Assembly: GCA_013368315.1 (NCBI GenBank)
Contig: JAACJM010000147.1
Span: 124,001 to 188,000, forward strand
Length of the DNA stretch: 64,000 nucleotides
Source: Tetrapyrgos nigripes
Taxonomy: Eukaryota; Basidiomycota; Agaricomycetes; Agaricales; Campanellaceae
Direction: 5' to 3'
This document shows positions 9,724 to 41,280 of this stretch, piece after piece (within the stretch, counting starts at the first letter, position 1; every line of letters begins with the position of its first letter). Under the pieces are notes generated by a model, which did no database searches, had not been told where the DNA came from, and saw nothing but the letters and a program-made list of their open reading frames with translations. Position numbers and translations under genes: made by a program.

Positions 9724-10172
9724 ATCATGCTTCATCTTCACATCCACTTCTTTGTTAATTCTTTATGCTTGGCTTGCAAGATCTTCCAGTGATGTTGGTG
9801 CAGTGGGGTCGCTCCCCATGCAGCGTGGGTTTTTACCTGTCCCAGCAAAGACCTCGAAAGGCACAGTGCGGTTACACCTGAATAGGGGCTCAGGTTTTTC
9901 ACCCTGACATCATCCTCAAATTTGGAGCGAGCGCTCATGCAATGTCTTTATTATCTATTCTTTTCATATTTCTGTCTTCATAGTTAGGTTCACAGAGGTC
10001 GACATACCTTAGTCTATTTTTTTAGGCGGAGATGAATATCATTTTTTAAACACTGCAAGTGCGTTGCAGACCACGCGCTTTTCGGCAAAAGCCGGTGACC
10101 GGTTACAGTGATCAAATGGCCCCGGAGACCGGTAGAGCTATCGAGCACAGCCACACGCGGAAGCGTCAGGTT

Positions 10173-10849
10173 ATCACACCGAAAAGGGACAAATTTCCGC
10201 TCGATGGATACATGATCGGATATGTGTATGAAAACGAGATATATTTGAAATCTAGATATAAATACAAAAAGATGATGTATCTGTAAGCTAGATATTTGAT
10301 CAGAAAGTTGCTATATAAGGATGAATTTTTAGTATATTTGATTGGTGTGCGGACATATTCTGTATCAAAGCTATTGAAAGAACTACATAAAGACCTCAAA
10401 TCAGGATTCCAGACATGGTTACTGATATGTGTCCGAAAAGACAATAAGTCCGGATTCTGGACAAGGGTCCTGATAGTAGTCCTGGCAGATGAACTGATAG
10501 ATCAGAATGAATGCTATAAAAATATCAGTATTACGGACATATAAACTATACGCACCCATATCTGGAAGCCGGATGTATTGTCTTTTCGGACGCATATCTG
10601 TAACTATATCCGGATTCTCGATTCTCGGTCTTTTTGTACTTCTTTTAATAGCTTTGATACATAATATGTCTACACACCAATCAAATATGCTAAAAGGCAT
10701 CCCTATATAGCAACTTTCTGTTCAAATATGTAGCTTACTGATACATCATCTTTTTGTACTTATATCTAGTTTCCAGATATATCTCATTCTCGTACACATA
10801 TCCGGTCACAGATCCGTCGAGCGGAAATTTGTCCCTTTTCGGCGTGTAT
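10173..10849. mobile_element. Long-TIR foldback element, about 680 bp, non-coding
   Basis: Arms of roughly 230 bp are inverted copies: the left begins CACACCGAAAAGGGACAAAT and the right ends with the complement CCCTTTTCGGCGTGTA. Matching continues through ATATTTGATTGGTGTG and CAAAGCTATTGAAAGA into the centre, where GTCCGAAAAGACAATA (10428) pairs with 10575 onward. The same termini occur in the element at 62608-63770. TA lies at both edges, so a TA duplication is possible. The small ORFs in it are not genes. Confidence 0.75.
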
Positions 10850-11100
10850 AAGAACGAGTACCTAAAGGGCCTCGTAAAAAGTAGTATACATACATAAAAT
10901 ACAGGTGCAGGTCTATATGCTTTCTCCTGATATGTCTTTTAAGACAAAAAAAATACTTGAAAATCATTAGGTACGCACTGCGGACCTGGCGCGACCTGAC
11001 CCGACCACGAGGGTCAACACAGCCACTGCCCCGGCCTTTGACGAGGGCCAGGCCTGACCCGGACCACAACAACACTGCTTCCAAGGTTCCACACGCTCAC
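10850..11100. other. Short spacer, nothing recognised
   Basis: Between the foldback element and the coiled-coil fragment I see no gene, RNA or repeat that I can support. Confidence 0.4.
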
Positions 11101-13195: not shown

Positions 13196-13686
13196 CATCA
13201 GTATTTTGACAGATTACTGGTTTCAACTGGTAGGGCCAAAATTTGGCAGAGCACCAGTTGAAACCAGTAGACCCCCCATTTCCACCAGACAAGTATTTTT
13301 CTCCACCAGTTGAGTGCTTTTCGACGTCGTTTGGGCATCATCATTGTCGAGGAAGGGCCCAGCAACATTGCCAAAGGTGAGCACATGGTCAGTAATGATC
13401 CGAAAGTCATTTCCGACATCGGCTAATGTTCTCATCGTTGTCAGGGACAGCGTTCGGCACCTCCCGACGCCCCCGACGACCGGCTGACGCGTAGCCGCCG
13501 CTACTTAATAATTATTGCGCCACCTGTTTGCGATAGCTACGGTGATATCATAGGTAGTTTTTACTTACATCTCCTACTCTACAAGTGCTGTTAAGTATCC
13601 AAACAGAGGTGAATAAAATTTCCACCAGTCAGTTGGCTTGCAGCACCAGTGGACCAGTCCACTAGTAATCTGTCAAAATACTGATG
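13196..13686. mobile_element. Non-autonomous TIR element, about 490 bp
   Basis: The termini CATCAGTATTTTGACAGATT (13197) and its complement (ending 13686) are perfect for at least 20 bp. If the element starts at CAGTATTTTG, the flanking octamers GTGACCAT and ATGACACC match at five of eight positions, which would fit an old hAT-type insertion. No transposase inside. An internal hairpin lies at 13216-13270. Confidence 0.7.
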
Positions 13687-14347
13687 ACACCCCGTAGCCT
13701 TTTCGGCTCGAATTAACTTGACGACACGCGTCCGAATCCCTCCGTAGCCACTTCCAATCCAACCCGGTCCACTGACTCCAGCGACGACACAACCCACTGT
13801 ATAAGTATGCTATTACTCATTTTCAAATTCTCTGATGCAAGCTGATATATCAATCCATACATAGTAAGAATAGGGAAAGGTATGTGATAAAGCCGTTCTT
13901 CCCATGGGATGTTCCCATCGCTGTGTTCAAGCTGTCAATTAAATCTGAGATCTGAGCTCTTACCTCCAGTAACATCCCGTTGCCAACATCGTCCACTGTC
14001 CCATCCCCTTACCCTATTCTTGATCTTATTCTTATGCTGTTTTGCTGTGCACCACCGCAGTCCTTACTAGCTTCAACACCCATATGCTCTATCCGGCTGC
14101 GAAACGTTTCAGACTGCGAATGAGTCAACGAGCGCGGGATCTTCATATCTACATTTGTACGCATCAAGTCTTGGTGAGTTTCTTTATTTATCATCGGTTC
14201 TACGGTTCACTTATAAAGCACTCTCTAGATTAGTGGTGGTAGTCAATTCCCTCCAACCCTTCTGTTATTCTTTCTTTCTTCCTTTGACTTTGAACCCCCC
14301 TGGTAGCGTGTTACCGTATCTCGACCTAGGTAAACGCACGCAACACT
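13687..14347. promoter_or_regulatory. Upstream region of the GMC oxidoreductase gene
   Basis: About 660 bp precede the start codon at 14348. The last 130 bp are pyrimidine-rich (CTTTCTTTCTTCCTTTG at about 14266-14290), a common core-promoter feature in basidiomycetes. No clear TATA box close to the start and no operator that I can name. Confidence 0.35.
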
Positions 14348-16954
14348 ATGAGGCCATGCTCGTCTCTGTCAGCGGCATTCCAGGTTGTATCGGCCATAGC
14401 AGTGATCCTATCACCCGTCCTTTCCCTTGTCCGGGCGGAGTCGACGCTGTACACGAATCCAAATGATCTGCCCACAAAGGAATACGATTTCATCATCGTT
14501 GGAGGTGAGTACCAAGTCTTTCCCTTCGCTTCATTCAATAAGGGCTTAACGATGGATTAACGACGGACGCATACGCCTATAAAGCTGGTACAGCCGGAAA
14601 CGTACTCGCTGCTCGACTAAGTGAAGATCCAAGTAAACGTGTCCTGGTTATCGAGGCTGGTGTCGAGTAAGTACTCATAGTGACATAGATAATAACTTTA
14701 GCCATTCATCTTCCTTCAAACCGAATTTCTATAATAAAGCGATACCGGCGTCCTCCCAGTCCAAGTCCCCTTCCTCGCTTTCAACAACGAAGGAACACCC
14801 ACAGATTGGAATTACACTACCGTGCCTCAGAAAGAACTTAATAATCGGACGATCTCGGTACCCAGGGGTTTCTGCTTGGGGGGGAGTAGCAGTATCAGTG
14901 AGTCGTTACATTTTCGACATTTTATTGTTCGAGGATGCAAGATTTACTGACTCTATACATGATAATAGATCTCATGATATGGACCCGAGGCTCGAGCGAA
15001 ATCTGGGATCATTACGCTCAAGTTACTGGGGATTCAGGTTGGAGCTGGAATGCGCTGGAGAAATATTGGGATAAGGTAAATAATATATTGTTGGGAAATA
15101 TTAGCTACCTCTGGACTTACAAACCCTCCCTTCCTATAGATATCCACCTTTGTCCCTCCAACCTCCAATCCATCAATTCTCCCTCCTCCACCTAACGACC
15201 TCACGTTATCCAATGGAGACGGACCCGTCCTCGTCACTCGAGCCAATGCCCCAACCGAGCTTGACTGGAGAGTGATCAACACCAGTATGCTGATACAACA
15301 AGAGGAAGAGTCGAATGGAGAAAGTCCAAGGTTCAAGTTTACCGAAGATATGAACACTGGGGATAGTATTGGATTCGGTAAGCCAGCCTTAGTTCGGGTT
15401 CCCTTCTGCGGGTGGTCGTATATACCATATATACTCATATGAAACTCAGGATATCACCAATCGGCGAGCGGGAAGGGAGAACGACGTTCTTCGGCTGCAA
15501 CATACCTCCATCCAGCGCTCAATAATCGGTCAAATCTGGATGTTTTGATTCACACGAGGGCTATGAGATTGGTTCAGGACAATTCAACAAACGATTATAT
15601 TCCCGTTTTTAACCAGGTGGAAGTCGCTCAAGCCGTTGGTGGTAAGTAGACTCGGATCTACGCACTACTACTTCCTCTTCGATATGAGTTGACTTCTCTC
15701 CTTTTTTAGGTCCTCGATTCACTTTCCGTGCTAAAAATGAAATCATCTTGAGTTCGGGCAGCATAGGGACGCCGCAAATATTATTACTTAGCGGCGTGGG
15801 TCCCAAGAGTGAATTGGAAGACATGGGGATAGAAGTTGTGGTTGATAAGCCCGGTGTAGGTGACTAGATGATATTCCATATATATGAAGCATCTCTCACT
15901 CAAAAATTGCTGATTCTCTCCAAGGCAAAAACCTACGCGAACATGCCATGCTCGTCGGCATCTACAACGTAAATTCCAACATGACATCCGATGATCTTTT
16001 GCGAAGTCCTGCTCTGCAACAACAAGCACTCGAGCAGTGGCAAAACAACAGGACCGGAAGGTTTGCGGATTCGGCGAGTAATGTTCTAGGTGTGTACTAT
16101 GCATACTATATGCTGCGTACTCCTTATATGAACTGCACTGACTCACTTTGATGCTAGGGTTTATGAGGATACCTGACGGTCAGTTGAATGGAGCACAGGA
16201 TCCTACATCTGGACCTCATACGCCTCATTTTGAACTGCTGTTTGCGGTAAGTGCCTTAATCACTTCAAATTGAGCTCCTTTGATTTCTCCATTTACCAAT
16301 CCGCAGGACAACTTTGTAGGTGTTCTCGATCCGCTGCCTGAACAAGGCCATTTCATCACTGTTGTCAACGTTGTACTCGCACCGCAATCCAGTAAGGATC
16401 ATTTCATGTCTTCTCGGCATTCTAGTTCTCTTATTTTTCGTGATCAGCCGGTTCATTGACTCTCTCGACCGCCGAAGGAGGGACATTCACCCAGCCTCTG
16501 ATCGATTATAGCATATATTCCGACCCAGTCGATGTTCAAGTCATGCTTCAAGCGATGAATGACACTGAGACCTTCTTGTCTAGCAGCCCTTGGACTCAGG
16601 ATGATTTCATCATTTCCCAAGTTGGTCTTGGTCGAAAAGCAACGTCTGAGGAGAAGCTCGCGTTCATGAGGGATAATACTATCACCATATTCCATCCCGT
16701 CGGTACTGCTAGTATGGGAAGTCAGGAAGAGTCCGTCGTAGACCCAAGATTACGAGTGCGCGGTGTAAAGGGTATTAGAGTTGTTGATGCAAGTGTCTTC
16801 GTGAGTGGTTTCCATTCCTTGTTCATAAATTCGCAGTTGAACTTAAATCATCTTTGGGTAGCCTACCATGCCAGAATGTCATCCTCAAGCGGTGGTGTAT
16901 ACTTTGGCTGAACGCGCGGCGGATATCATCAAGGAGGATAATGAGATGCTATGA
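14348..16954 (+). CDS. Secreted GMC (glucose-methanol-choline) oxidoreductase, 12 exons
   Basis: FAD-dependent alcohol oxidase or dehydrogenase, likely extracellular and H2O2-producing. Exons by splice logic: 14348-14504, 14585-14666, 14740-14897, 14969-15075, 15140-15377, 15450-15641, 15710-15859, 15925-16089, 16158-16246, 16307-16391, 16448-16800, 16862-16954; total 1869 nt, 622 residues, no internal stop. Residues 1-30 form a signal peptide (hydrophobic [19 protein letters not shown], then A-E). The ADP-binding motif is [18 protein letters not shown], and GMC signature 2 reads [16 protein letters not shown]. Near the C-terminus, HPVGTASMG and CHPQAVVY supply the two expected His positions. 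Length is usual for aryl-alcohol oxidase or related members (about 570-620). Substrate cannot be told; lignocellulose-linked aryl-alcohol oxidase is one option. All introns are 56-80 bp with GT..AG. The best-preserved gene in the window. Confidence 0.93.
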
Positions 16955-18799
16955 GCTAAGACAATATGACTGCTTTAATACTAATCCTTCCTTGATCCAC
17001 ATTCGTTCGTTTATTTTCGAGTCATTAGTTTCAAGATTCACTACGATACAACTTTCTTCATACTTATCATAAGTTAAGTATAGTATATCTACCTCCTTCT
17101 GTTACTCTACATCAATTACTCAGTACTAAGTACACTCTCTTTCGATCTATTTGTCACTTCTCTACTACAGTATTTTGCTCCTATAGCGTTTATATCATGT
17201 ACTAGTACAGTTCCGAATGTAATTTCCTCGTTTCTTTGTCTCTTGCATTCGCTTTGCGTGCTGCTGGCTCGCTTGTTTCAGTTCGTTTGTGTTTGGTGCT
17301 AAGACTTGTTGGATGGAACAGAGTCGGCAGGAGTCAGAAGGCATCGGTATAGCTTAGATTAACTAAGAAAGATGGACAATAGCATGAAATGTCATATAAT
17401 CGGATTTATCTGACAGTTTCCTGGAAATGGTTGGATCTGGCCAAAATCTTTCTAAAAAATTCTGGTAGTATGCGGTAATTTTCTGACTTTTTCAGACTAT
17501 TTCCGAGACGATTGGGTTTCCCTCTGACTTCCAGACATGGCCAGAAATAGTCGGATGTACCCGGCATCCTCTTTTACTAGACGGGAGATCAAAGATAGAA
17601 TATATTGAATATGTGAAGATATAAAGACAAGAAATACAGATTGGCGAAGCGTCACTTTTAACAGATGACACTGGTGACGCCGCTCTGATGCGCCAGCAGT
17701 CCCCAGGCCTCGTCCAACCGTCCTGAAACCTTCAAATTCAGATTCTATGACTAGAAACACATTGCCTCATTACCCCACATTATTACTAATTTGCTGTCTT
17801 CCATTTGCCACCTCCAAGCCAAAATTTTTTTTTGGCTAGCATCTCAGAATCCGCCCTCCTGTATTTCAACCGCTGCATTAGGCCACTCATTTTCGGTACA
17901 AAAATGATTCATTGTGACCTTATCTACCGCATCATGATGCCCAAAGTCCCATCTGGGTCCCTTCTACACCATTAAGTGGCCATCAGTTCAAGGTGAGCCA
18001 AATAAGGGTCTTTCTCACAAAGGTCAAATCCCCTGGATGTATGTTCATGTTCAGGCAACCTGTTTGCTATGTATAAATTTTTTTGTGGACCAGGCGAGCT
18101 GCCTCATGTACTTTTTGTGGTGATGCATTCTGGAAGAAGAGGAATGGGGTTTAAATTTTAATACTCGCGATCTCGTTTATATTTAGGTCCCCATTCACGC
18201 AGAGTCGTTTGGTATCGGGGTTCGAGTTTACGGTGAAGTTAGAATCGAGAAGTCTGTCACCATCATGATCGCCGCTAATAAGAACATCCGAATTCGAGTC
18301 TGAGTCTGAGTCTGGCAAAGTAGAGCTAGACCAAGATCCATCACACATTTCCCACCACCGACACTCATATTGCCTTCCCGTCCGATAACCACATCCCTTC
18401 CGAAAATGGATCTTTAAATTGTAATTACCAGAGTCAGATACATCAGCTTTCAGTACCTACAACAAAGTTGATTTCTTACACCCGGCCTCCAATTTTCACC
18501 ATGATTTCTTCCAAGAACGCACTGCTCTCATTGCTTATGGGGGCCAATAGGCATATGAGCAAGGACAGGTGATGGCGAAGAGGCTTCATCCCTTGCTAGG
18601 TGTAATGGTTAGCTCCTAGACTCCTACGCTCCTTATACCTTTTATCATATGTTAGACTATTACTCCTTTTAGTATTCTTATAAATACTTGTATCTTTTGT
18701 AGTAGTTCTTCAGTCAAATCAACTCTTAGTTTCCTTCTTAAAGCCGTCTCTTCTAAGTCTACTTAAAGGCTAGCCAGCACCCTTACACTAGGTTTATGA
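16955..18799. other. Intergenic stretch downstream of the GMC gene
   Basis: About 1.8 kb without a supported gene. The first 200 bp are T-rich and probably hold the 3' end of the GMC transcript. Around 17400-17540, GGCCAAAATC and GGCCAGAAATAG blocks hint at a weak inverted repeat. The short reverse ORF at 18151-18348 is mostly an Asp-Ser repeat from GAGTCTGAGTCTGAGTCTG and is not convincing. Confidence 0.4.
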
Positions 18800-26410: not shown

Positions 26411-26524
26411 CCTAACCCAAACCGATGTGCTCAGTGAGAAACATCAAAGCTACTTTCCCAGATGCGAAAACCTTTCTGCACAGGTAGGTGTCAAGATGAC
26501 ATGTGCTCCACTTCTGTGGGTCAT

Positions 26525-28163
26525 CAGAATATCCCACCTCAGGTATCCCCTGGGACCTACCTCCTTAGGCTGTACTGTTTCTGTACAAACTTCAGCCTTG
26601 AGGTGGGTAAATACCTGGGAGGCTACCCAGTGCCAGGGAGCTTCCTACACTCCCTGGGAGTCTCCTGGTATTTTGTGTCTGGACTCCCATGATCTCTAGA
26701 TTGGGTGTGCTGGGAGCTCACATTGCCTTGATGGGAGGTACCACTCCTGTCACTCTGTCACAGGGTGTCCCAGTTCTTTTTTCCTCCAAAATGCGGTTTT
26801 TCTGCTTGTCAGATTGTACCTTAGAATTACAGTGGTTTGCGAAAAGAATGACCGTGGGAAAATTTTGAAAGTATATCTCAATTTGGCATCTACGTAGTTT
26901 CTTAGTACAGTCGCGGCGCTGTATACTGCTTCATCAATTACCTGCTGCTTCCTCTCAATCCTTATGTCGCAATGAACCGGTTTTCCCACATGAGGTCTTC
27001 AAGCTCTTGGATGAACCAATCTGAGTGATGTCAGACAATTCAGATCAAGAATTGCATGTCTTCCATAGCCAGGGATCGTGGGTGGCCTCGAACTCCAAAT
27101 GAGTGATTGATAACATCTCCAGTCTCCTGCCAGAGCTTGAGGACCCTCCAAAAGGTACTCTCGCTAAACCCGACCACTTCCAAAATCTGCTCTAGCGTCA
27201 GCAGGCCCTGTTCATAAAGGTTTACAGCAGCAAGCTTGAGGCCTCAGTCAATGGGCTTTTGGCCAAGCATAGTTGGATTTGATGTGGAAAGAAGCTATAC
27301 AATGAGAAGGTATGAGGACAAGTAGGCGAAGCAAGGAGGAGTTGAGGAAGGGCTTCGAGTACGGTACAGTAGGTACAGTAGGCTGACACATCACCCGAAT
27401 CAAGATATATACTTTCAAAAATTCCCACTGTCATTCTTTTTGTGAACAGCTGTAATGAAACTCCGTTTAACAAATATTAAAAGGTGTTATAACATAGACC
27501 ATTATATATATCTCTGCCATATACCTCAAGCGATTGTGGTTCAGACTTTAAATACTTGAAATACCAAAAACTATTATTAGAGCTGATACTATTCTACTGG
27601 TGAAAAAGCATGTTGAGTCCAGGTGTGTATACCAGGCCAGATTGGAATCAGGGCCTGCTGCTGATCAGATAAAAATAGATAGGTAGATGGCTAAGTTAAG
27701 TTTATTACACCGCTCCACAAAAGCTAGCTAGGTATGACAAAAAGCAGCTCTATGTGGACCCATTTCCTGAGTCTAGTGGGGCAAGCAACAATGATGTAGA
27801 GCTGATCATCCTGACGCAGTGCTGAAGCGCTATAAAGTGGCGCAGAGACGGGGAACATGTGCCTTGATGCACAGGGTAATGTTTGGTAAGTAAGTAAGTA
27901 GAGCTAGAAGAATGAGTAAGTAAAGATACTGAGAGTAATTGAGAAATACGAGAGATGAATGCCAAGTACAACTAAGTACAATAATATAGGAGGATCTTAG
28001 AGAGAAAAGAAGAGAAAGAGAACAGGCTACAGATAGATAGAGAGCCAGCAAGCTAACCACTGCACTATTCTGGCTTGTGAGAGTAAACAATGTCTCAATT
28101 ATTGGCCACTTTTCTTGACAATCATGCCAGTTTATTGATACAAACTACTTATGTAACAGTACC
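26525..28163 (+). repeat. Left TIR of the KDZ element
   Basis: Outer end has CACCTCAGG...ACCTACCTCCTTAGGC, inner end GTAACAGTACC. Both find inverted partners in the right arm, together with the block around 27740-27890 (AGCAGCTCTATGTGGACCCA and ATAGCGC-type palindromic segment). Contains the Tc1 insertion 26830-27452. Confidence 0.9.
26830..27452 (-). mobile_element. Deleted Tc1/mariner element inside the left KDZ TIR
   Basis: 623 bp, begins CAGTGGTTTGCGAAAAGAATG and ends with the imperfect complement TTCTTTTTGTGAACAGCTG. TA lies on both sides (26828-26829, 27453-27454). The right KDZ arm has the empty site with a single TA in the same context (CTAAGG on one side, ATGA on the other, minus orientation). 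On the minus strand about 27240-27040 encodes a Tc1-type HTH (LTLEQILEVVGFSESTFWRV, then RGHPRSL). The catalytic domain is missing. Confidence 0.93.
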
Positions 28164-30310
28164 TCCTCCTCCTCCTCCTCAGCAGCTGAGGCTGGGATGG
28201 TTTTCGTCATCTTAGCATGAGCCTTGGGCTTCAGTCCATTCACAACACCTTGAGCTTCATCCTCTCCATTCTTCTCGTTGTCACTAGCTACGGTTCGAGT
28301 GGTTTTCCTCGCATTGAGCTTGCTGGACTTCTTGGGTTTGCTGTGACTGCTGTTGCTGTCTGAGGTTTCAAGAGTCCACTTTCCTGACTGGCAGACAGCG
28401 ACTTTCTTGGCCCCAGTGGTCAACATCACTAGCACAACGTCTCATTGTTCTGCCTTTGGAAGTCTCTTGTCATCTAATAACAATACTGTAAGTCCTTGTT
28501 ATGGTCTAAAAAAATTACAGGGACATACTGTTGGTCCAAGACACCCCTCGCAAGGCTTTCTTGGAGATCTCTTTGGGAGGAGTAGTGTCATCTTTCTTAC
28601 TCTTCCAAGCCTCTTTTGATTCTCACTTTTGTGAGAGATGTTGGAGTTTGGGTTTTCTTGATGGCATCATTGACCCCACCTGCTCCAGGTACCTTCACAC
28701 CATCATCTCAGTTGACAATATGGAGCTGGTGCTTATAGGCGAAGTCAGCCGAGCTCGTCTAAGAGGTAAAAACAGCATTAGGTTCTGTAAAGACATCAAA
28801 CTGCATGGAGCATAACAGATAAAAAGGCATGCTCACTGTCATGATTGGTGACCTTTGTTGAAGGGTCTCACTGACATTGGATGCTTGCAACCCATGAGGA
28901 CCTCCAAATCATGGAGTTGAGCCTTCTGAGTGGCATTATTCTCCCTCAAACCCTTATATTTGTCGCCATGGCCCAACATGACACTGTGTTTCCCTTTCAG
29001 GTCAATAACATAGCTGATGACCCAGAGTCCATGGTTAAAATAGGCTTGCCATGCCTACCAGATGTGATCAGGATGAAACACTGGGTAGAGGAAGAATTGT
29101 GAAGGTACCATGTTTGCCATTGTCTGGGCAATTGACTTGATAGCCCTTTTTGTCAGTCCTTGTCTCATCTGCCCTTGGGAGTTATATTTGTTTTGATACC
29201 GGGTCCTAAGCCAGCTGAAAGCATCACCATATTGCTTGGAGTCACTCCAGTCATCTCTGAGAGCTTTTATTCGCTCCTCTGCCCATTTCTGAGCCAGGAA
29301 GGATGCAGGGTTTTCTGAAAAGTTTTATGTTCAAGCGATGAGCAGGGAAAAAAAGACTTATGATTGTTGGGAAAGAGTCTGTGATGTTGTCATTGCCTGG
29401 GTCCTCATGTAAGGTAGGCAGATAGGCCATCAGACACCTTACACCAGCATTCTGCTTCTTGTCTGGCTCTACAGTTGCCTCATCAATGGCTTTAACCCAT
29501 TCCAGAGGCAGCTCAGTCACTGCTGACTTGAAAGTGTCAAAGAAGAGCTCAGTGATAGCAGAGACAGCGGATATGGATTCAACAGCATAAATCTTGAGCA
29601 GTCATACAGCTTCGTCAATGCTCTTGGGAGTGATGTTGGGCAGCAAATTAGAAGTGCTTCAAAAGAAAATCAGAATGTAGTTGCTCACCTTCTCCATTGA
29701 GATAAATTTGTTTGTCATTCTTTAAGCTTCGTGTGTCATTGGAATGCTTCATAGAGGGTGGAGCTGCTGAATTGGGTTCTGGAGGACTTTTGGGCTGGGT
29801 CTCGTGCTTGTCTTCCCCATCAATGACACCAAGACCAGGGGTTTCCATAGTCTTGGAGGTGGTAGCCTTGGGTGACTCCTCATGAACAGGAGTGTGTTCG
29901 TCCATGGAGACGTGTTGTCTGCCTGTCCATTACCTTCATTAAGGTACTGTGGTGACTCCTCATGAACAGGGGTGTGTTCGTCAGCTGGAGAATTGTCTTC
30001 TGCCTTTGTTGAGGGGTTGTAGAGATGTGGAATCCTTGAGCCCTGCTGCCACGACCACATTTGGTTTTAGGGGTGGCTTTGGTGATTTTGGTGGACAGTT
30101 TTGAAGTGTTTCGTCCTCTGGAATTTGTAGGAAGTGGAGGAGGAGAGTCAGCATTTCCTTTAGAGTGAAGCTGCATTGGGACTGTCTGTACACAACAAAG
30201 TACTTCTTGAGTGAGATGGAGGTCAAACTTGGTTGAAGTTGAAACGATGGGGCTATTAGCTTGTTTCCTCCAGTGAAGAGCTTAGAACCACAAAGGACTA
30301 AACCCATCAA
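28150..30310 (-). pseudogene. Unidentified KDZ-cargo gene, several exons, decayed
   Basis: Open segments on the minus strand follow one another from about 30310 to 28150: a basic disordered part (SRGRNTSKLSTKI, then KTKCGRGSRAQG), an acidic Pro/Ser-rich part (TPGLGVIDGEDKHE), a folded-looking part with NITPKSIDEAV, then PLEWVKAIDEATVEP and CLMAYLPTLHEDPGND, followed by FLAQKWAEERIKALRDDWSD and LKGKHSVMLGHGDKYKGL, and a Lys/Glu-rich tail ending in EEEEEEV. At least three stop codons break it. I recognise no named domain. Its place between the TIRs and opposite orientation to the transposase suggest a second element-borne gene rather than host DNA. A nucleic-acid-binding role is only suggested by the basic segment. 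Confidence 0.55.
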
Positions 30311-30374
30311 CCTGTCAAATATGTCAGTAGCTGCAGCACCAGTAGGGTCTGAGATCCTGTAATTTGTTCAGAAT

Positions 30375-30970
30375 GTTAGCCAGTGGCAATGGGAAAGGCA
30401 GAGATACTCACTGGATCCCATGGATTCTAGCTGCCCTGGTGCAGACATGAAGATGGTGGAGCTTATCATCCCAATCCCAAACGATGATGAGAGTGGGAGG
30501 GATCAAGAAGATAACAAAGCTGGCAACATAGAGTTTGCGTCAGTGAGAATTGTTGTCTGAGCCCATAATGTTAACCACAGTGGCAATGGGAAGGGGATAG
30601 ATACTCACTGGAAGCCCAGGGACTCTAGCTATCCTGCTTTAGACATGAAGATGGTGGAGCTCATTGTCCCAGACGATGATGCAAGTGAGCTGGTGATGCG
30701 GACTCTGTATAGTCTGTGTCAGCCAGGATTGTTCCCAAGTCCCTCGAGCCACATGCTAAGACCCATTGAAAACATCAACAATAGCTGCAGAAGTGAGAGG
30801 ATAGGTACTTACTGGATGGCCATGGACTCTGCATACCCTACATAGCATCAATGGAGGAGACAGAGGAGATCATCCCAGACAATGATGAGAGTAAGAAAGA
30901 GAGATGGAAAAGATGACAAAGCTAGTAACACATGCACTGTATAGTCCCTGTCAGCCAGAATTCTTCACAA
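30375..30970 (+). repeat. Three degenerate tandem units of about 190-200 bp
   Basis: Three copies share TGGCAATGGGAA, GATACTCACTGGA, GACATGAAGATGGTGGAGCT and GACGATGATGA-type blocks (about 30375-30570, 30575-30770, 30790-30970). The third is most diverged. It lies between the divergent unknown gene and the Spt5-like gene of the KDZ element. Confidence 0.7.
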
Positions 30971-31270
30971 CTTTAGGTCGCTTAAGGGTGCTAAAGCCTG
31001 GACCCAGGAACCCAGCTTTGTCATCTTTTCCATCCTTTTCTCAAACTTCCACAAGTCCTCCACTGCCTTTGCCTCCTCCTCCTCCTCTTCCTTGTGAGTA
31101 TGCTATTTTTAATATGTGTAGAATATGTAGTGTAGCTACTTAGCGTGAATAAAATGAAATCTACCTGCCGAAGTGCTGGTAAAGTTGTCCATAGACAACT
31201 ATTTTTTAGTTTTCTGTGCCTTAAAAATGTCTTAAGCATTTTGCTGACAGTCTGTGCTGGCAGGCCCCCT

Positions 31271-34200
31271 ATGAACCCTTTTATCGATAATGAAGCCAGT
31301 GTCTCAGCAGATGAAGAAGAAGCAGAGGAGGAGGCAGAGAAGTGGGAGGGAGAAGAAAGTTTGTGTTTACATCCATTTCATTCTCTCCAATATCCACTGA
31401 CCATTCTGCACCAGGTACAACACCACAACAATGAACCAGAAGAAACTGCACTGTGGGATGCTTTCATCCAGCACAGCAAGACATGTGCAAATGCCAGCAT
31501 TCCTCCAATTAATGCTCCTTCAGATATCAGTGAAGAAATAATGCATATCTTGCTGCTCCAACAGGTCAACCCTTCTGTGTTTTGGCATGTAAAATGTAAA
31601 GTAATATTTGTGGTCATCTCCCATCCACACACTAACATAACAGATGCATTGGCATAGCCTGGTTTGGAGTCTGAGCTCGTCTCTGCACTATATGATCATT
31701 TTACCTCCCCTTCCAACCCCATACCAGATGGCATTCGTTTGACACAACCTGTAACTATACCACCACCACGGATTCCAATACCAGCTCAAAACCCCCAGAT
31801 GTCTCATTTCCATGAGGCTTTTGACACTGTTCAATGAGGACTTCACTTGGGTAGTGAAATACCCAAGATCCATGCTGAGTTGGAGTGAATCCTGCAAGAC
31901 AATTACATTGGGAAAGACTGGGATGCTGCTGTGTCAGCTACCATCCTGGAAGAGGACAATTGTCTACAGGATGCTTTAGAGACAATCAATTCATTGGAAT
32001 GACAATGGTTGGCTCAGAACAACATTCTCACTGTATCTCAGGAGATACCCCTAACCACTCAGCCCACAGTTCTCCCTACTCCTGCTCCAGCAACAACCAC
32101 CTCATCCTTCAGCCCAGTCACTCCATGGTTCTGCAGCAATAAGATCACCACCATCACCCAGCCCTCAGTTGCACCTGCACCACCCAGCTCACCATGTCTC
32201 ATCCGATCTGCCTTGTGCATACCTGGCATGTCCAGTTGGGTCTACGTTGAAACAGAGCCCAATCTCCATCTGTCCTTTGCAAAGTGAGCTCCTTTGCTGA
32301 AGTTTCTTCAAAGTCATCAATGCATGAGGCATAGTCACACTGGAAGCCCCATCATAGAATTCGTCTCTGCTCAAGAGATGGGTCAGCTGCTTCAGTGGAC
32401 TTTGCCAGCCATCAAACCAATGAGCTAGGTGAGGGTGAGGAAGGGGACGTATACTGGTGACATGGGTTTCATGGTCAGACAGATATGTGACCAAGCATTT
32501 CTGCCCACTCACTTCCTGAACACTGGGTGCAAACACTTGTAATTCCTCAGATATACAGAGGAGTTACACACGCCTTACTTGGGTACACTCAATATGTAAG
32601 TCTATATGACTTACTGAGGAATTACAAGAGACCAAAAAAATTAGATTAATTATGTATGACCATTATAAGGCACAAAGACTTACAGAAGACTTTCAGTGTT
32701 ATAGCACTTGTAATTCCTTGGATATACAGAGGAATTACAGAAGCCTTACTCAGGTACACTCAATAAGTAAGTCCACTTGACTTACTGAAGTATTACAAGA
32801 GACCAAAGAAATTAGAACAGTTATGTATGACCATTGTAAGGCATGAAGACTTACAGCAGACTTTTGGTATTACAGGAAATAATACTTTGTCCATAACAAA
32901 AAATAAAAGAGAATTACAAGAAATCAAGAAAAATCAAAGAATTTGGTAAGTGCATTGTAATACATATAGACATATAATGGACATTCATTGTGACTTTCTG
33001 TCACAGTATGTGACACAATGGATATACAAAGAAATTTCAGAGTGACTTTATGTCACAGTATGTTATTCTGTAAAAGCTCAGCAGAATTTCAGTGTGACAA
33101 AAAATCACAGTATGGTCAAGTGTAATACCATTGGGACTTACATAAGACTCACAGAAAAGAAGGCCCTGGAAATCTTCAAGATGAAATTTATCAAGTGACA
33201 GGCAAGTGACAGGAATTCACCAAAAAGTCTGTCAGTATTACAGAGGACTTACAAGAAAGCCAGGTCAGGCATGCTATATGATAATTCTTCAGTCAAGTTG
33301 TGCCTCTTGCACTTGTGCCTGAAATTTCTTTGTATATCCATTGTGTCACATACTGTGACAGAAAGTCACAATGAATGTCCATTGTATGTCTACATGTATT
33401 ACAATGGACTTACCAAATTCTTTGATTTTTCTTGATTTCTTGTAATTCTTTTTTATTTTTTGCTGTGGACAAAGTATTATTTCCTGTAAGTCTTCATGCC
33501 TTACAATGGTCATACATAACTGTTCTAATTTCTTTGGTCTCTTGTAACACTTCAGTAAGTCAAGTGGACTTACTTATTGAGTGTACCTGAGTAAGGCTTC
33601 TGTAATTTCTCTGTATATCCAAGGAATTACAAGTGTTATAACACTGATAGTCTCCTGTAAGTCATACATAATTGTTCTAATTTTTTTGGTCTCTTGTAAT
33701 ACTTCAGTAAGTCAAGTGGACTTACTTATTGAGTGTACCTGAATAAGGCTTCTGTAATTCCTCTGTTTATCCAGGGAATTACAAGTGTTATAACACTGAA
33801 AGTTTCCTGTAAGTCTTCATGCCTTACAATGGTCATACATAATTGTTCTAATTTCTTTGGTCTCTTGTAATACTACAGTAAGTCAAGTGGACTTACTTAT
33901 TGAGTGTACCTGAGTAAGGCTTCTGTAATTCCTCTGTATATCCAAGGAATTACAAGTGCTATAACACTGAAAGTCTCCTGTAAGTCTTTGTGCCTTACAA
34001 TGGTCATACATAATTACTCTAATTTTTTTGGTCTCTTGTAATTCTTCAGTAAGTCAAGTGGACTTACATATTGAGTGTACCCAAGTAAGGCTTCTGTAAG
34101 TCCTCTGTATATCTGAGGAATTACAAGTGTTTGCACCCAGTGTTCAGGAAGTGAGTGGGCAGAAATGCTTGGTCACATACCTGGATCCCACTCAGCCTGA

Positions 34201-35888
34201 TGAATGGGTCAACCAACTCGACATTTGGAAGCAGTTCTGTTGCACAGATAACAGAGAGGCTCCTGTGTACGGAGTCATCATCAACATTTCTGCAGTGTTG
34301 TGGAACTGGTAGGCCATCAAAGTTATACAGCAAGTTAAAACTTTCTTATTTGCGATTTACATGAAAATTCACCAATTCCATGTCAACACTTGCAAGCATG
34401 TTGGTGCTCGAGACTCCAATGGTGGTCATCATCTTCTCTGGATTGATGAGCACGTCTGCTGCCATGAAAGTGCTAGGAGAGACACCAACTACACCAGCTT
34501 TATCACCAATATCTTCTTCCCAAACCCATATACCAAGGTGAAGGTTTATTTTCCTCACTTGAACAAGTCAGCCATACTGTGACACAACAATGTTGATCAG
34601 TTGATATGACTACTCTATACTCTTTTGCAATGATTATTCACTTACCTTGATTGTCAAAACAGTTCAGGAATGTATCTTAAGAATGCACTGCCTCTTGGGC
34701 CACATCAAAAACAGTTTCATCAAACAAGGACCAGGAGGAATGAGATGAGCTTCACAAATTTGCCTCTGAGAAGTGACAGGCTAGGTGCTACAATCAGAGG
34801 GCTGACATTGGTGCAGCTAAGGGAGCTTTGGCATCTCAAGCCCAAGCCACACCACTGATCTCGATGAAGACACCTGCTGCACCATGGAAAGACATTCATA
34901 TCATTGTTATCCATGGTCTGATGAAACTTTATGAAGGGAGTGTCGTCAACGTCTTGCAAGGAGACAACATGCTACTTGGAGATGGTAGTCTGGCATTTCC
35001 TAGTGGATTGCACATCTCCATCAATTTCAGTCAGGTTATGACCTATGCCCATGGAAATGCAGCGAGATTGGAGATCAATTATAGCTGGATTTGTGATGTG
35101 AAGTGAGTATTTGCATTTTTTCCCTCTCATGCCCTAAGAACTGACTGCATGAGCAGAACTGGACAGGGATTAAATGAGGTGTACCCATTGAAGTATTCCC
35201 AGCAGTACTACCAACCCAAGTTTCCTGTGGAAGTTATCAAGATTTCAAAATGCTCCTTGTCTGTAGAGGAATCCACTGTTTCCTGAGCTCTGACTCTGCC
35301 TCCACCCCAGGGAGAAGTGGTTCATGATGGTGGTGCTTGGGATCCCACCTTCTTGGAACTGGACTTACCATCGTTCTCTGTTCCCCTACCAATGTGGATC
35401 CACCCTCCACTCAATGGGAAGACATTTATGGCCACTCACAGACCCAAAAACTGACCTGAATGCAACTGAATGCACACTACTCCTTTCTTGAATGATAAAA
35501 AGGTGCAGCTTCAATATGGCAGAAGTAAACCATTCCTTGTGGATCCTGCAGAGGTTTATCTGATGCCAGTGAGAGCAATGTCTCATGAAGATGGTATCTC
35601 ATTTGTTTTGGAGAACATGATGGCAAGTATGCTCGTCATCTCTATGTCTGGTATGACAAAGAGCAGCACAGCGAGGAGTCTTGGATGGTAGTAGCAACAT
35701 TCAGAAACTAGGGAACAGTACAGGAAGAGATCTGGGATGAGGAGTTCCTGATTGATGCCAGCATTTGCATAAATGCTGGGCCTATAGCCCATGACAATCC
35801 TTTGACTCTGTGGGTGCAGGAGAGGAAATCAGCCTTGAGAAAGAAGAGAGAGCAGAAACACCTGCCCAGGAAGAAGAAGAAAGATTGA
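31271..35888 (+). pseudogene. Spt5-like NGN/KOW protein gene carried by the KDZ element, decayed
   Basis: Order of recognisable parts: NPFIDNEASVSADEEEAEE (acidic N-terminus from ATG at 31271), an NGN-like segment around PGMSSWVYVETEPNLHLSF (32226-32281), a KOW-like GTYTGDMGFM (about 32448-32477), a second KOW-like stretch WKDIHIIVIHGLMKLYEG with SGLHISINF (34882-35030), and near the end DGKYARHLYVWY plus a tail rich in Lys and Arg, stop at 35888. Spt5 is the eukaryotic NusG homologue that travels with RNA polymerase; agaricomycete genomes hold many Spt5-like copies of this layout with unknown function. The gene is broken by several in-frame stops and by the 1.6-kb foldback at 32521-34142. 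Family call rests on remembered motif patterns, not a search. Confidence 0.6.
32484..34179. mobile_element. 1.6-kb foldback element (CACTG ends) with palindromic flanks
   Basis: The body 32521-34142 starts CACTGGGTGCAAACACTTG and ends with its complement. Each arm carries copies of a subunit of about 165 bp (with GTAAGTC(C/A)A(C/G)TTGACTTACTGAAG): about two on the left (32521-32870) and four on the right (33484-34142), around a shorter palindromic centre near 33130-33300 rich in GTGACA/TGTCAC. Outside the CACTG ends, 37 bp on the left (32484-32520) and right (34143-34179) are perfect inverted copies rather than a direct duplication. It is a grown form of the 280-bp MITE at 1327 and 36197. Confidence 0.85.
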
Positions 35889-36196
35889 TTTACCAGACAT
35901 TGTGGACACATCCATACCCTGTATATAGTTTGTATGAACATACTTGTTGGAACTGTTTTTGTCTTTCTTGCTGTTGTACAGACTCGTTGTCACAGTTTTT
36001 ACAGTGTTTATCCCTATCCACATATTGTGGAAGTATCTTACTTGTTTATATATTCTCTGTGCCATGTGATTATCATATGACTGCCTCATATCTTATCTTT
36101 TGATTAGCCCTATATGGCTTGATCTAGTCCATCATTCCAGACTTGCATTCTAGAATACTTGCTTAGGTAGTCAGTTACACAAGGGACACATGCTAT

Positions 36197-36475
36197 CACT
36201 GTGTGCAAACACTTGTAATTCCTTGGATATACAGAGGAATTACACAAGACTTACACTAGTACACTCAATATGTAAGTCCACTTGACTTACTGAAGTATTA
36301 CCAAGGACCACTGTGAGACTTCATGCCTTACAATAGTCATATATAATTGTTCTATTTTTCTTGGTCTCTGGCAATACTTCAGTAAGTCAAGTGGACTTAC
36401 ATATTGAGTGTACCAGTGTAAGTCTTATGTAATTCCTCTGTATATCCAAGGAATTACAAGTGTTTGCACCCAGTG
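36197..36475. mobile_element. Palindromic MITE, second 280-bp copy
   Basis: Starts CACTGTGTGCAAACACTTG, ends with CAAGTGTTTGCACCCAGTG. TAT flanks it on both sides (36194-36196, 36476-36478), a 3-bp target duplication. It lies between the Spt5-like gene and the transposase gene and is nearly identical to the copy in the Gypsy element at 1327-1606, so both moved fairly recently. Confidence 0.92.
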
Positions 36476-36813
36476 TATTGGTCAATTACTGCCATAATAT
36501 GCCATTTAGAATTAATTTGTCATCAGTAGTATGTCATTTACACATCTGACTGAATTACTTGCATCAGTCAGCATATCAGTCAGCACATCAGCCAGCACAT
36601 TAATCAGTGCATCAGTCAGCTAGGTACCAGGGGGTCTTAGATAGTGTCTGGGGTCTTAGAGTACTTGTATATAAGCTGTAGTGTCTGAGCCTGTAGGACT
36701 CAGTGTATACAAGCATCTCTCTGCATCAACCTAAGTCTAAGGTCATTGGCCCTGGTGCAGGTTCAACATGATGAAGGAAGGGGAAAGAAGATCTGGTCTA
36801 CCTTGGCAGAGGT

Positions 36814-39800
36814 GTGTCATTGACCCAAAGACCAAATCTTCCTTGTCTTCATGGGCAAATCAGGTTGAATGGTGATCATCCTGCTCAGCTGGATGAAGAA
36901 AACCAACCTCTCACTGCCATTCTGCCAACCCAGGAAGACACTGTGGATACATTGTTGCAGGAATTTAGGCAGCCCGAGCCAGTCTCCCCTTGTAAACAAT
37001 CCCACAAGTTGAAGAAGGAGTGTCAGTGGAGACGTTGGCTGAAGGTCATGACACCGATGCTGGTGGAACATTATATGGATTTACTTAGAAGGATGGAAAA
37101 CCTGTGCAATGATCCTGAGAGGCAGTTTGAGGAGAGCTGTGAGTGTCAAAAGGGTTGTTGGCATTCAGTGTCCATCATTTGGTTCACTAGTGCGTCTTTT
37201 TATTTTCACACTGAAATATTTACTAAATGAGACTTTTTCTGTAGGTATTGGGACCCTTAAACTGTGGATTTGTGATGAATGTGCTCCTGCCACCATACAG
37301 CTCATCAAGAACAGTTTGTTTCCATGTGCACCTGTACTACCTACTCTGGCTGTTGATATCTGCATGCTGGATTTGCAGATTTCACCCAACATGACTGCCT
37401 GGAGTGGAACACTGATGGAGCAACTTTCTGAGCAAGGCTACCAACTACATGGACAGGACCCCTTATGCTTGCTATGGCTCCAAAGTCTTCAGGATGCAAC
37501 TCAGAAACTAGTCAAAACGAAATTGGAATATGCCAGAGACCAGCTGTTAAGCCCTTCCTGGCTTGAGGAACCCTCGGGTACAACATCTGAAGAAACCTCA
37601 GCCACCAATGCGACTCCCTCGAATCCCATTGCCTCACTTTTAACGCCTATCATTCCGTCCTCAACCTCACCTCCAACTGTCCCATCTGAGACTCCACTAC
37701 AAGCAGCTCAACAACAAAATCGTCCCAGTGAATATCTCCGTTCACAATGTCTGAGATGTTTTGGGAGCACATCACTGGAGGAGCCCACATCTAGACCTCA
37801 ATGTTTCATCACCAAAGATGCTTGTTTTACTCAGAAGCACAACAAGCAGAGTGCATGCAACCCTCCCTGGTTCCACCTGGACACTTTTTTCATTCCAGAG
37901 ACAATGGTGAAGGAGTGGGAGACATTTTTTGAGGAGACAAGGACTTGTCATCCATCCAAGCGAGGAAGGATAGATGATGAAGGTTTACAGTAGGATCATT
38001 TTGAGCATGGCATGCATGTATCTAAGTCTGCCCTTGACGGGTGTCAGTCCAGCTTTCACGCTGCTCAGGAGATCTTGGCCAAATCACCAGCTGCAGGCTA
38101 TGATGCGACTGCTTGCACCAGAATGTTTTGTATTCACAATGCAGCTCTCTTTATGGTATCTATGGAGTCTGTTGGTGAGAAGCAGCACTACACACTAGCC
38201 TTGATTGTGACTCTCTTCGAGCATCTGCCTGAGAGCTGGAAGATAGGGTTGCTATACAACATTGCATGCCAGCTGGAACAAAGCTGCCTCAAGTGGGGTT
38301 TTTTAAAGCAACTCCACAAGCACATTTTTTGGGCTGTTTCCATATTTCATGCCTATGGTCATAACCAAGCATGTCAGCTGATATACCATCCACGGAAATG
38401 GACTTGGTTTGGTTTCTGTGACAGTGAAGGCTGTGAGTGGTGTTGGAGTTGTCTGAATCACTTGGTAGTGTACACAAGAGTTGTTGGGGTAAGTGGTTCT
38501 TATCTATTGCAAGGGAAAAGATTGCTAACAAGTCCACAGTATTATCTCTGGTTATACATGTTGGATATGCAACCCCACCGCCATAATGATCTGGTTTTTC
38601 TTAGCTCAGTGAGTGCTCTAGAGAGGAAGAAGAGGATGCTACACAATTGACATGAGGAAGCTACCAAAGCCCTGGCTGAATGCAAGTAAGACGAAGACTT
38701 TCTTAGGGCACAGTGGAATGAGCAGGTTGAGGCTCAAACTAAGCCTCTTCTGAGTGTGTTCTTGTTTTCTTTACAAGTATGGGTACCTTATCTAGGACAA
38801 AATCCTGTAAAAAAAGCCCTTTGCTTTCACAAAAGCCTGGAAATCATCAAATTGAAGATAACTGATCTTGAACAGGTGATAATATCACCAAATACTAAGT
38901 GTTACAAGACTGTGGTGATTCATGACAAACTGGTCAAAGCTCGTCAATCAAGGGACCAACTATGAATTAAGCTGACTCAGAAAGAATGACAGCTAGGCCC
39001 AGCAGAGAAGAAAGAGCTGAAGAACCTCTGAAACCATCCCTTTTATACAAAACACCTGAATCCACTTGCTGTTAAGCAACAGCTGCATCAGAAGTTGATT
39101 GCTAGATGTTACCGACAGTAGAGAAGTGGTGAGTGTCTCTACGGATGAGCAGAGTATGATGCTGACTGTGATAATGATCATTACACAGAAAAAAACCTTC
39201 ATGCTCATACCCAGGATGCTATTCAACACCGAGATCCCTAGTATCAATATGTTGGCCAATAAATACAACACACTCTGCAATGAAATCTCATGTCTCATAT
39301 GCCAGGGAAAGACTCCTACTCATGCTGTCACACCACAGATGATAGAGAGAGGAAACCTCTTCAACTTAGACATTGTTGAGGACATTTGGCAAGATGCAGG
39401 ACTCAGCGAAGACACAAATGATTCCCCACCACCATGGATGGCAGATGATGATGTCAGAAAGGGTATTAGAGCTATTCTGGACCTCGACCATGCAACTGAG
39501 GAGGAGGAACACTTAGTGAGGGAACAAAGGTCGTTGTTTGAATGGTTTATGGAGGAATGGCAAATTATCTTACTGGCAATGGAGTCGTGCAAAGGTGAGA
39601 GTCTTTTTCTATGATACAGCTTGTAATTGATTAGTTTCTCTGATCATTCAGAGAACAAAGGTCTTTTGCATCAACTGCAGCAGTGCAAGCAGTTCCTGTT
39701 GAAGGCCTATGTCCACTGGGAGTGGTCCTTCCTGATCAACAAGAACCTTGCCTGGGGTTCAAAACAGCCTACAGACAGTGAAATTGGGGATGCACAAAGA

Positions 39801-40079
39801 CAAGCACTGCTTAATTCAACAATCATTATGGGTGATGGCGAGGGTGATGATGAATTTGGGACAGAGTACATGGAGGGACACAGTGATAGTTTGACTGAGC
39901 ATCTTGACTCCCAGGACATAATCAAGGGATACAGAGATTTGGAGTGGGTGGAAGTGAACTTCACAGTGACCAGCATTGATTTGTTATTTTCTCATGTTTT
40001 CTTACAAGAACATTCTTATTGTACTTCTATTGAGCAAGTATTCCTTGGTTGTCTGTCTGAGGGCCATCAGAGGCTATGA
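36814..40079 (+). pseudogene. KDZ transposase with N-terminal CxC cysteine cluster, decayed
   Basis: The N-terminal part reads KKECQWRRWLKVMTPMLVEH, then a cysteine cluster (CECQKGC before an intron near 37190-37245, CDECAPATIQL after it) and LFPCAPVLPTLAVDI, the landmark of basidiomycete CxC-KDZ proteins. The core has FITKDACFTQKHNK, a catalytic-region motif, then HVSKSALDGCQSSF, GEKQHYTLALI, LLYNIACQL, SIFHAYGHNQACQLIYHPRK and GFCDSEGCEW (Glu), as in KDZ transposases (RNase H fold). After a further intron (about 39593-39651) a C-terminal region ends at 40079. Stops at 37991, 38648, 38963, 38987, 39029 and others, several of them TGA at likely Arg positions. Start codon approximate. Confidence 0.85.
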
Positions 40080-40260
40080 GGAAGAGTATGGGAGCTACCA
40101 GTCAGGGACTGGTAGCTCCCAGAGGCTGCAAGAAAGGGTATTCAGAGGCTACGAGGAGAATGGGAGCTACCAGAGGCTATGAGGAAGAGTATGGGAGGTA
40201 CCAGAAAGGAATTGGTAGCTTCCAGAGGCTACAGGGAAGAGTATGGGAGCTACCATAGTT
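40076..40260 (+). repeat. Tandem repeat of about 37 bp with embedded hairpins
   Basis: About five units of the form AGAGGCTA(T/C)GAGGAAGAGTA followed by TGGGAGCTACCAG. A perfect hairpin lies at 40090-40120: GGGAGCTACCAGTC, loop AGG, GACTGGTAGCTCCC. It sits between the transposase end and the right TIR. Confidence 0.85.
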
Positions 40261-40265
40261 GTATA

Positions 40266-41275
40266 GGTACTGTTACATAAGTAGTTCATATCAATAAACT
40301 GGCATGATTGTTGAGAAAAGTGCTCAATAATTGGGACATTGTTTACTCTCACAAGCCAGAATAGTACAGTGGTTAGCTCGCTGGCTCTCTATCTATCTGT
40401 AGCCTGTTCTCTTTCTCTTCTTCTTTTACTCTCTAAGATCCTCCTATATTATTGTACTTAGTTGTACTTGGCATTCATCTCTCATATTTCTCAATTGCTC
40501 TCAGTATCTTAGTATTTACTTTGATCTCTTACTTACTCATTCTTCTATCTCTACTTACTTACCAAACATTATCCTGTGCATTGAGGCACATGTTCCCATT
40601 TCTGCGCCTCTTTATAGCGCTTCAGCGCTGTGTCAGGATGATCAGCTCTACATTGTTGTTGCTTGCCCCGCTATACTCAGGAAATGGGTCCACATAGAGC
40701 TGCTTTTTGTCATACCTAGACAGCTTTTGTGGAGCGGTGTAATAAACTTGATTTGACTTGACTTAGCCATCTATCTATCTATCTATTATTATCTGATTGG
40801 CAGCAGGCCCTGATTCCAATCTGGCCCAACATACTTTTTCACCAGTGGAATAGTATCAGATACTTCAAGTGTTTAAAGTCTGAACCACAATCGCTTGAGG
40901 TATATGGCAAAGATATATATATATAATGGTCTATGTTATAACACCTTTTAATGTTTGTTAAAAATGGTCTCATTAATTCTAAGGTACAATCTGACAAATA
41001 GAAAAACCGCATTTTGGAGGAAAAAAGAACCCAGACACCCTGTGAAAGAGTGACAGGAGTGGTACCTCCCATCAAGGCAATGTGAGCTCCCAGCACACCC
41101 AATCTAGAGATCATGGGAGTCCAGACACACAATACCAGGAGACTCCCAGGGAGTGTAGGAAGCTCCCTGGCACTGGGTAGCCTCCCAGGTATTTACCCAC
41201 CTCAAGGCTGAAGTTTGTACAGAAACAGTACAGCCTAAGGAGGTAGGTTTCAGGGGGTGCCTGAGGTGAATATCC
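40266..41275 (-). repeat. Right TIR of the KDZ element
   Basis: Inverted counterpart of 26525-28163, without the Tc1 insertion. It retains the empty target TCATTAATTCTAAGG at about 40969-40983. Two simple runs, (ATCT)n near 40770 and (AT)n near 40915, also recur in the left arm in related form. Confidence 0.9.
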
Positions 41276-41280
41276 CCTAT

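Follow-up and report, generated by a model that had tools for sequence, protein, structure and literature searches.

Does a fungal DNA transposon carry a homologue of a general transcription elongation factor as a regular part of its equipment, or has such a gene been caught inside a repeat by chance? The question is raised by a 64,000-nucleotide stretch of the Tetrapyrgos nigripes genome (GenBank assembly GCA_013368315.1, 98.5 Mb in 587 contigs; JAACJM010000147.1, positions 124,001 to 188,000), which we call the window and which is part of contig C144. An earlier note on this DNA had described long terminal inverted repeats (TIRs) that enclose a KDZ transposase, an Spt5-like gene with NGN and KOW domains and a third gene of unknown type. 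Our analyses place a decayed KDZ DNA transposon at window positions 26535-41268 (14,734 bp), its ends set by self-comparison and by the target site duplication (TSD), and we regard it as nearly certain that the element is a KDZ transposon with an Spt5-like gene as cargo. The best explanation of the locus as a whole, to which we give a probability of roughly 0.6, is a dead copy of a KDZ family whose standard set comprises the transposase, the Spt5-like gene, a gene A and a gene D that occurs once or twice, and whose Spt5-like protein acts on the polymerase.

The inverted arms noticed earlier, at 26525-28163 and 40266-41275, are real, but their limits were off by 7-20 bp, the ends lying at 26535 and 41268. 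In the self-comparison, the outer arm pair (26535-26829 and 40974-41268) agrees at 96% over 295 bp (E = 1.9e-136) and the inner pair (27453-28164 and 40265-40975) at 83%, the left arm being interrupted by a nested insert of 623 bp at 26830-27452. The termini of the window copy read CACCTCAGG...CCTGAGGTG, and AATATCC stands at both flanks as a perfect 7-bp TSD. Between the arms, the Pfam KDZ profile matches at 37994-38650 far over its curated cut-off (E = 4.3e-34; 118.6 bits versus 26.6), and the transposase is thereby secured; no CxC match was found in the window copy by the Pfam search, and in the sister copy on contig C497 the best CxC match is CxC1, just under its cut-off (E = 1e-4; 22.8 bits versus 26.9). 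The window copy is dead, with stop codons in the KDZ gene, the Spt5-like gene and gene A.

The outer arm recurs at many places in the genome, and 23 ends match a 28-base terminal pattern with at most two mismatches, the reversed pattern giving none as a control. Copy counts in this genome may be inflated by haplotype duplicates, C118 and C485 being 100% identical over 573 amino acids. The copies with two ends on one contig number seven: the window copy and those on C262 (19.5 kb), C335 (26.0 kb), C43 (20.7 kb), C18 (30.9 kb), C153 (10.7 kb) and C497, the last truncated on the right where its contig stops. An exact 7-bp TSD flanks five of the six copies with both flanks readable (AATATCC, TCAAAAT, TGTCTCA, TGCACTT and CTACCAC). 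TIRs of about 1 kb, as first described, hold for the window copy and C335, whereas the matched outer arms of the other five copies (C262, C497, C43, C18 and C153) span only about 190-340 bp. Close to the element ends lie subterminal repeats of about 52 bp, which are plausible candidates for transposase binding sites.

Exon blocks taken from C497 (block S1 of the Spt5-like gene from C262) were mapped onto the remaining copies, and the fuller ones share a plan: KDZ (-), one or two D (+), Spt5-like (-) and gene A (+). All seven two-ended copies carry the KDZ gene, and in each the Spt5-like gene is present in whole or in part; six have gene A (C153 being the exception) and six have gene D, the window copy being without it. 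Copies with these TIRs and no Spt5-like gene were sought and not found among them, which supports the cargo proposed from a single locus as a family trait. All five Spt5-like blocks are retained in C262, C497, C335 and C43, and also in C337. All four genes are present in C485, and genome searches found the Spt5-like gene, A and D on C118 and C51, with KDZ as well on C118. C293, C403 and C7 are truncated by contig ends, and C459, C368, C396 and C130 lie outside the gene maps.

The association can also be read from the cargo side. Two genome searches, merged with the host locus dropped and with a second C18 piece (598411-598632) counted with the first, gave 45 Spt5-like loci in addition to the host gene. 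At least 16 of these have a KDZ gene within 10 kb among the listed matches, a lower bound because the KDZ list is incomplete: KDZ genes are abundant, with at least 173 matches when the best 150 of 345 candidates were scored and 150 of the 173 matches listed, and the counts rest on the Pfam search and on the maps of the copies. In 15 of the 16 close pairs, the two genes share a strand and KDZ follows downstream at a distance of 3.5-7.4 kb (orientation p = 1e-8); the proximity would still have p = 5e-8 with every one of the 345 KDZ candidates taken as real. Three further pairs, on C335, C43 and C18, have their KDZ gene seen directly in the maps. The link between Spt5-like loci and KDZ is supported within this genome, and on the gene maps, the TSDs and this pairing we reject the idea that KDZ came to lie in other repeats by chance.

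What, then, is the cargo? The window copy gives a hint only (Pfam Spt5_N at 0.0077, below cut-off, with NGN not reached in its own frames), and the gene was confirmed through its sister copies. The protein of C262 matches Pfam Spt5-NGN over the cut-off (2.5e-7; 31 bits versus 22.4), the match falling into two stretches, since the domain is divided by a long insert; in PDB, each of its eight matches with E of at most 1 is to Spt5 (the best being 8qsz_Y, named spt5, at 3e-11), and KOW1_SPT5 stays below cut-off. The divergent C485 protein supplies the KOW match, again in two stretches and over the cut-off (5.7e-8; 32.7 bits versus 22.3), and also matches an SPT5 chain in PDB (2.4e-4) and the host Spt5 locus (2.5e-4). 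Judged by these sequence matches, the protein is a true Spt5 homologue. The motif Y-x-E of the second NGN half, whose glutamate would contact Spt4, was found in 9 of 12 element stretches, the window copy included, and not in C43, C153 and C7; of these 12, C153 misses the front part of the Spt5-like gene and C7 has no Spt5-like gene.

Host Spt5 itself lies at C28:27600-33600, where the NGN profile, run against the genome, picks out a single exon above its cut-off, and the host's C-terminal repeat region (CTR) has three TPAWN and four RTPNPY motifs. When the 12 element stretches are read in six frames, neither motif occurs, a looser pattern giving one match in C18. The element protein lacks the host's CTR repeats and may have a CTR of other sequence; in Spt5, these repeats are used by host kinases and by chromatin or processing factors. 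Element and host proteins share NGN and KOW homology and differ in the missing motifs and in the long insert inside the NGN. A recent direct capture of host Spt5 was considered and rejected because of this insert, the absent CTR motifs and the remoteness of the element proteins from it (end branch of the host 2.26, its row being only 20% filled). A protein database search for relatives, in which 7998 candidates were scored and no fungal comparison set was included, gave none at 1e-3.

The gene has been kept by selection. Ratios of nonsynonymous to synonymous substitution (dN/dS; Nei-Gojobori) were computed for pairs with C497, stop codons and gapped codons omitted. For the Spt5-like gene, the deeper pairs give 0.21 (C335), 0.28 (C144) and 0.28 (C337), the comparisons with C485 and C18 being saturated; the values are 0.25 (C335), 0.27 (C144), 0.14 (C485) and 0.18 (C18) for KDZ, 0.30 (C335), 0.47 (C144), 0.16 (C485) and 0.16 (C18) for gene A, and 0.47 (C335), 0.31 (C485) and 0.39 (C18) for gene D. 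In these deeper pairs, the Spt5-like gene is under purifying selection at a ratio near the transposase's. The shallow pairs range over 0.42-0.89 across the four genes, raised values such as are expected if recent copies decay.

Nor is the arrangement confined to one family. On C337, the KDZ gene is 33-62% and the Spt5-like gene 49-66% identical, depending on the piece, and genes A and D have no match in the 16 kb examined. C337, C376 and C83 have in common a sharp outer end, CACTTCAGGCACCC; on C376, an inverted end 22.1 kb away and a 7-bp TSD, CTGAGAG, delimit an element enclosing KDZ and Spt5-like genes, and two other TIR pairs with ends like those of this second lineage, on C48 and C339, have 8-bp duplications. 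The KDZ tree has C337 as the outlier, with C485 and C18 near, and the Spt5-like tree puts C337 with C335 and C144, with C485 and C18 far. The differing trees suggest that KDZ lineages have exchanged the Spt5-like gene, which we consider likely, if unproven. Four further, divergent Spt5-like genes (C72:26584, C83:304675, C135:172542 and C173:162569) have KDZ matches 5.4-5.7 kb away in the same order; these loci probably represent a third lineage of KDZ that has an Spt5-like gene of its own.

What could such a protein do for a transposon? We propose that the transposase binds the TIRs and subterminal repeats and moves the element, and that the NGN/KOW1 core of the Spt5-like protein would, as in Spt5, bind RNA polymerase II and Spt4. 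The protein would then replace host Spt5 on the host polymerase without the control inputs of the CTR, allowing the polymerase to read through a long, silenced element. The kept core together with the missing CTR repeats suggests a polymerase rider outside host control, a mechanism to which we would give slightly less than an even chance; a dedicated elongation or anti-silencing factor is our best guess. More tentatively, the gene may belong to an Spt5 paralogue lineage that has long resided in fungal KDZ transposons, has been swapped between their lineages and provides them with an elongation factor of their own for carrying RNA polymerase II through silenced chromatin.

Several observations weigh against this picture. 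In shallow pairs, the Spt5-like gene has ratios of 0.53-0.89, and the present copies may be decaying. No KDZ is shown within 10 kb of 26 of the 45 Spt5-like loci, the listed KDZ genes being incomplete and some contigs ending inside the element, and one of the 16 close pairs, on C132, has the opposite orientation. Three loci with one TIR and KDZ (C145, C143 and C238) have no Spt5-like match within the 7 kb examined per contig, and C153, which is without a TSD, is internally reduced, with gene A and the front of the Spt5-like gene missing and only the last two Spt5-like blocks kept. In the protein, the long insert interrupting the NGN might spoil polymerase binding, and the blocks after KOW1 gave nothing significant as PDB profiles (S3 and S4) and no match over cut-off in Pfam (S4 and S5). 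Finally, in approximately unbiased (AU) tests of groups chosen after the trees were seen, the KDZ data reject the group of C335, C144 and C337 (p = 0.006), and with the Spt5 data the KDZ-type split survives the test (p = 0.077).

The same core architecture would also suit a decoy or dominant-negative factor, a CTR-less protein that competes with host Spt5 for Spt4 or polymerase and so blocks Spt5-dependent steps, including transcription-coupled silencing, instead of helping elongation. The kept NGN/KOW1 core and the absent CTR motifs fit this reading, as does purifying selection, which fits any protein function; yet a pure decoy might need the NGN alone, and five copies keep all five blocks, which makes us consider it unlikely. 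Less probable again is a role as transposition accessory, working alongside KDZ on the DNA of the element or on nascent RNA, for instance by steering the transposase to transcribed chromatin, and having no part in the element's own expression. Its appeal lies in the same-strand KDZ neighbour at 15 loci and in the similar selection on the two genes, but the discordance of the Spt5-like and KDZ trees, seen also in the dN values, clear in the KDZ data and weaker in the Spt5 data, argues against tight partner-specific contacts.

Transposons do capture host genes, and the cargo might be a passive one, an Spt5 duplicate caught by chance and of no benefit to the element, as the death of the window copy and the raised ratios of the shallow pairs would allow. 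Such a passenger would hardly be expected in all seven two-ended copies and in a second KDZ lineage, and the ratios of 0.21-0.28 in deeper pairs weaken the idea further; we consider it very improbable. A protein acting on the polymerase is the reading that we prefer.

Passengers of KDZ elements are known already: according to PMC12730594, some carry a TET/JBP gene thought to act on silencing. These Kyakuja elements resemble ours in the KDZ transposase, the 7-bp TSD, the 5'-CA..TG-3' termini and a passenger with a proposed effect on silencing, and our family has both the TSD length and the termini; by its 7-bp duplication, it is Kyakuja-like. Two Laccaria Kyakuja families are described there as having TET/JBP and no TIRs, whereas the TIRs here measure about 190-1,000 bp and more and the passenger is Spt5-like. 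A TET/JBP gene in our elements was considered and found unsupported, the genome having only two Tet_JBP matches (C284:50588-51019 and C404:26041-26394, one over the cut-off), and neither a TIR of this family nor an Spt5-like locus was found on C284 or C404. The C404 match has a KDZ match about 3.3 kb away. In Cryptococcus KDZ1, the TIRs measure 241 bp and the TSDs 8 bp, a CxC1 domain is present, and the paper that describes it (PMC12810828) makes no mention of Spt5; CxC1 is also the best, if subthreshold, match here.

Functional parallels come from further afield. The bacterial NusG paralogues RfaH, LoaP and plasmid-borne ActX (PMC7819879) are in some cases encoded on mobile DNA and serve long or silenced operons, but they consist of an NGN and one KOW, whereas the element protein follows the eukaryotic Spt5 type, its NGN carrying an insert. 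VANC of the Arabidopsis VANDAL elements (PMC5735166 and PMC10398659) is likewise a DNA-transposon-encoded protein that counters silencing, as we propose here, but it is unrelated and described as sequence-specific, whereas the target proposed here is RNA polymerase II. Literature searches for KDZ with Spt5, for KDZ with KOW, or for Spt5, KOW and transposase in fungi found nothing, the founding KDZ paper lying outside the search; those for Spt5 and Agaricomycetes led to one paper, on mitochondrial transcription, and a 2026 survey of elongation factors (PMC13289920) has no terms for transposons, KDZ, basidiomycetes or agaricomycetes. An Spt5-like gene as a KDZ passenger appears to be new. If the conserved passenger works as proposed, transposons recruit the core elongation machinery too, these elements hold a eukaryotic mobile-element counterpart of RfaH and ActX, and they offer a direct test of whether eukaryotic transposons evade silencing by steering polymerase elongation. 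Where mushroom annotations list additional Spt5 genes, these may belong to transposons.

The remaining genes belong to uncharacterised families that travel with the Spt5-like gene. Gene A, which answers to the third gene of unknown type, has no Pfam match over cut-off in the window or the sister copies; in C497, its predicted product has about 1,080 amino acids (13302-17131 of the joined stretch L014/L015). Gene D encodes a small protein and stands singly or as a pair between KDZ and the Spt5-like gene (in C497, L014 5313-5822 and 6472-7041), with nothing significant in Pfam, NCBIfam or PDB. Each of the 18 contigs on which gene D was matched has a KDZ, TIR or Spt5-like match as well.

Table 1. 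Features of the KDZ element in the window (window coordinates).
Feature	Position	Strand	Remark
Left 7-bp TSD, AATATCC	26528..26534		Identical to 41269-41275
Left TIR, outer part, starting CACCTCAGG	26535..26829	+	
623-bp insert within left arm, own inverted ends of ~50 bp	26830..27452		Relatives in the genome
Left TIR, inner part	27453..28164	+	
Gene A remnants, unknown family	28238..30194	-	Kept across the element family
Spt5-like gene, interrupted by stop codons and a repeat block; acidic start, then split NGN and KOW region	31271..35885	+	Identity via sister copies
Part of block of 171-bp units in inverted arms, in the place of ~187 Spt5-like codons	32480..34138		Whole block extends to 34183
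280-bp self-complementary insert	36197..36476		Second copy at 1327-1607
KDZ transposase gene, with stops	36733..39965	+	CxC1-like match below cut-off in sister copy C497
Subterminal repeats	40058..40244		Resemble ~52-bp array near end of sister copy C262
Right TIR	40265..41268	-	
Right 7-bp TSD, AATATCC	41269..41275		

Some minor features of the window complete the description (Table 1). The 623-bp insert, which has a relative on contig C307 (93%), contains helix-turn-helix-like reading-frame remnants and is presumably a fragment of Tc1/mariner type. The block of 171-bp units has large inverted arms (393 bp, 95%) and contains an inverted piece of the Spt5-like gene. An Rfam search of the window gave no matches. 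The two copies of the 280-bp self-complementary element agree at 96%, and a large palindrome at 10171-10851, 680 bp in size, is 80% complementary to itself.

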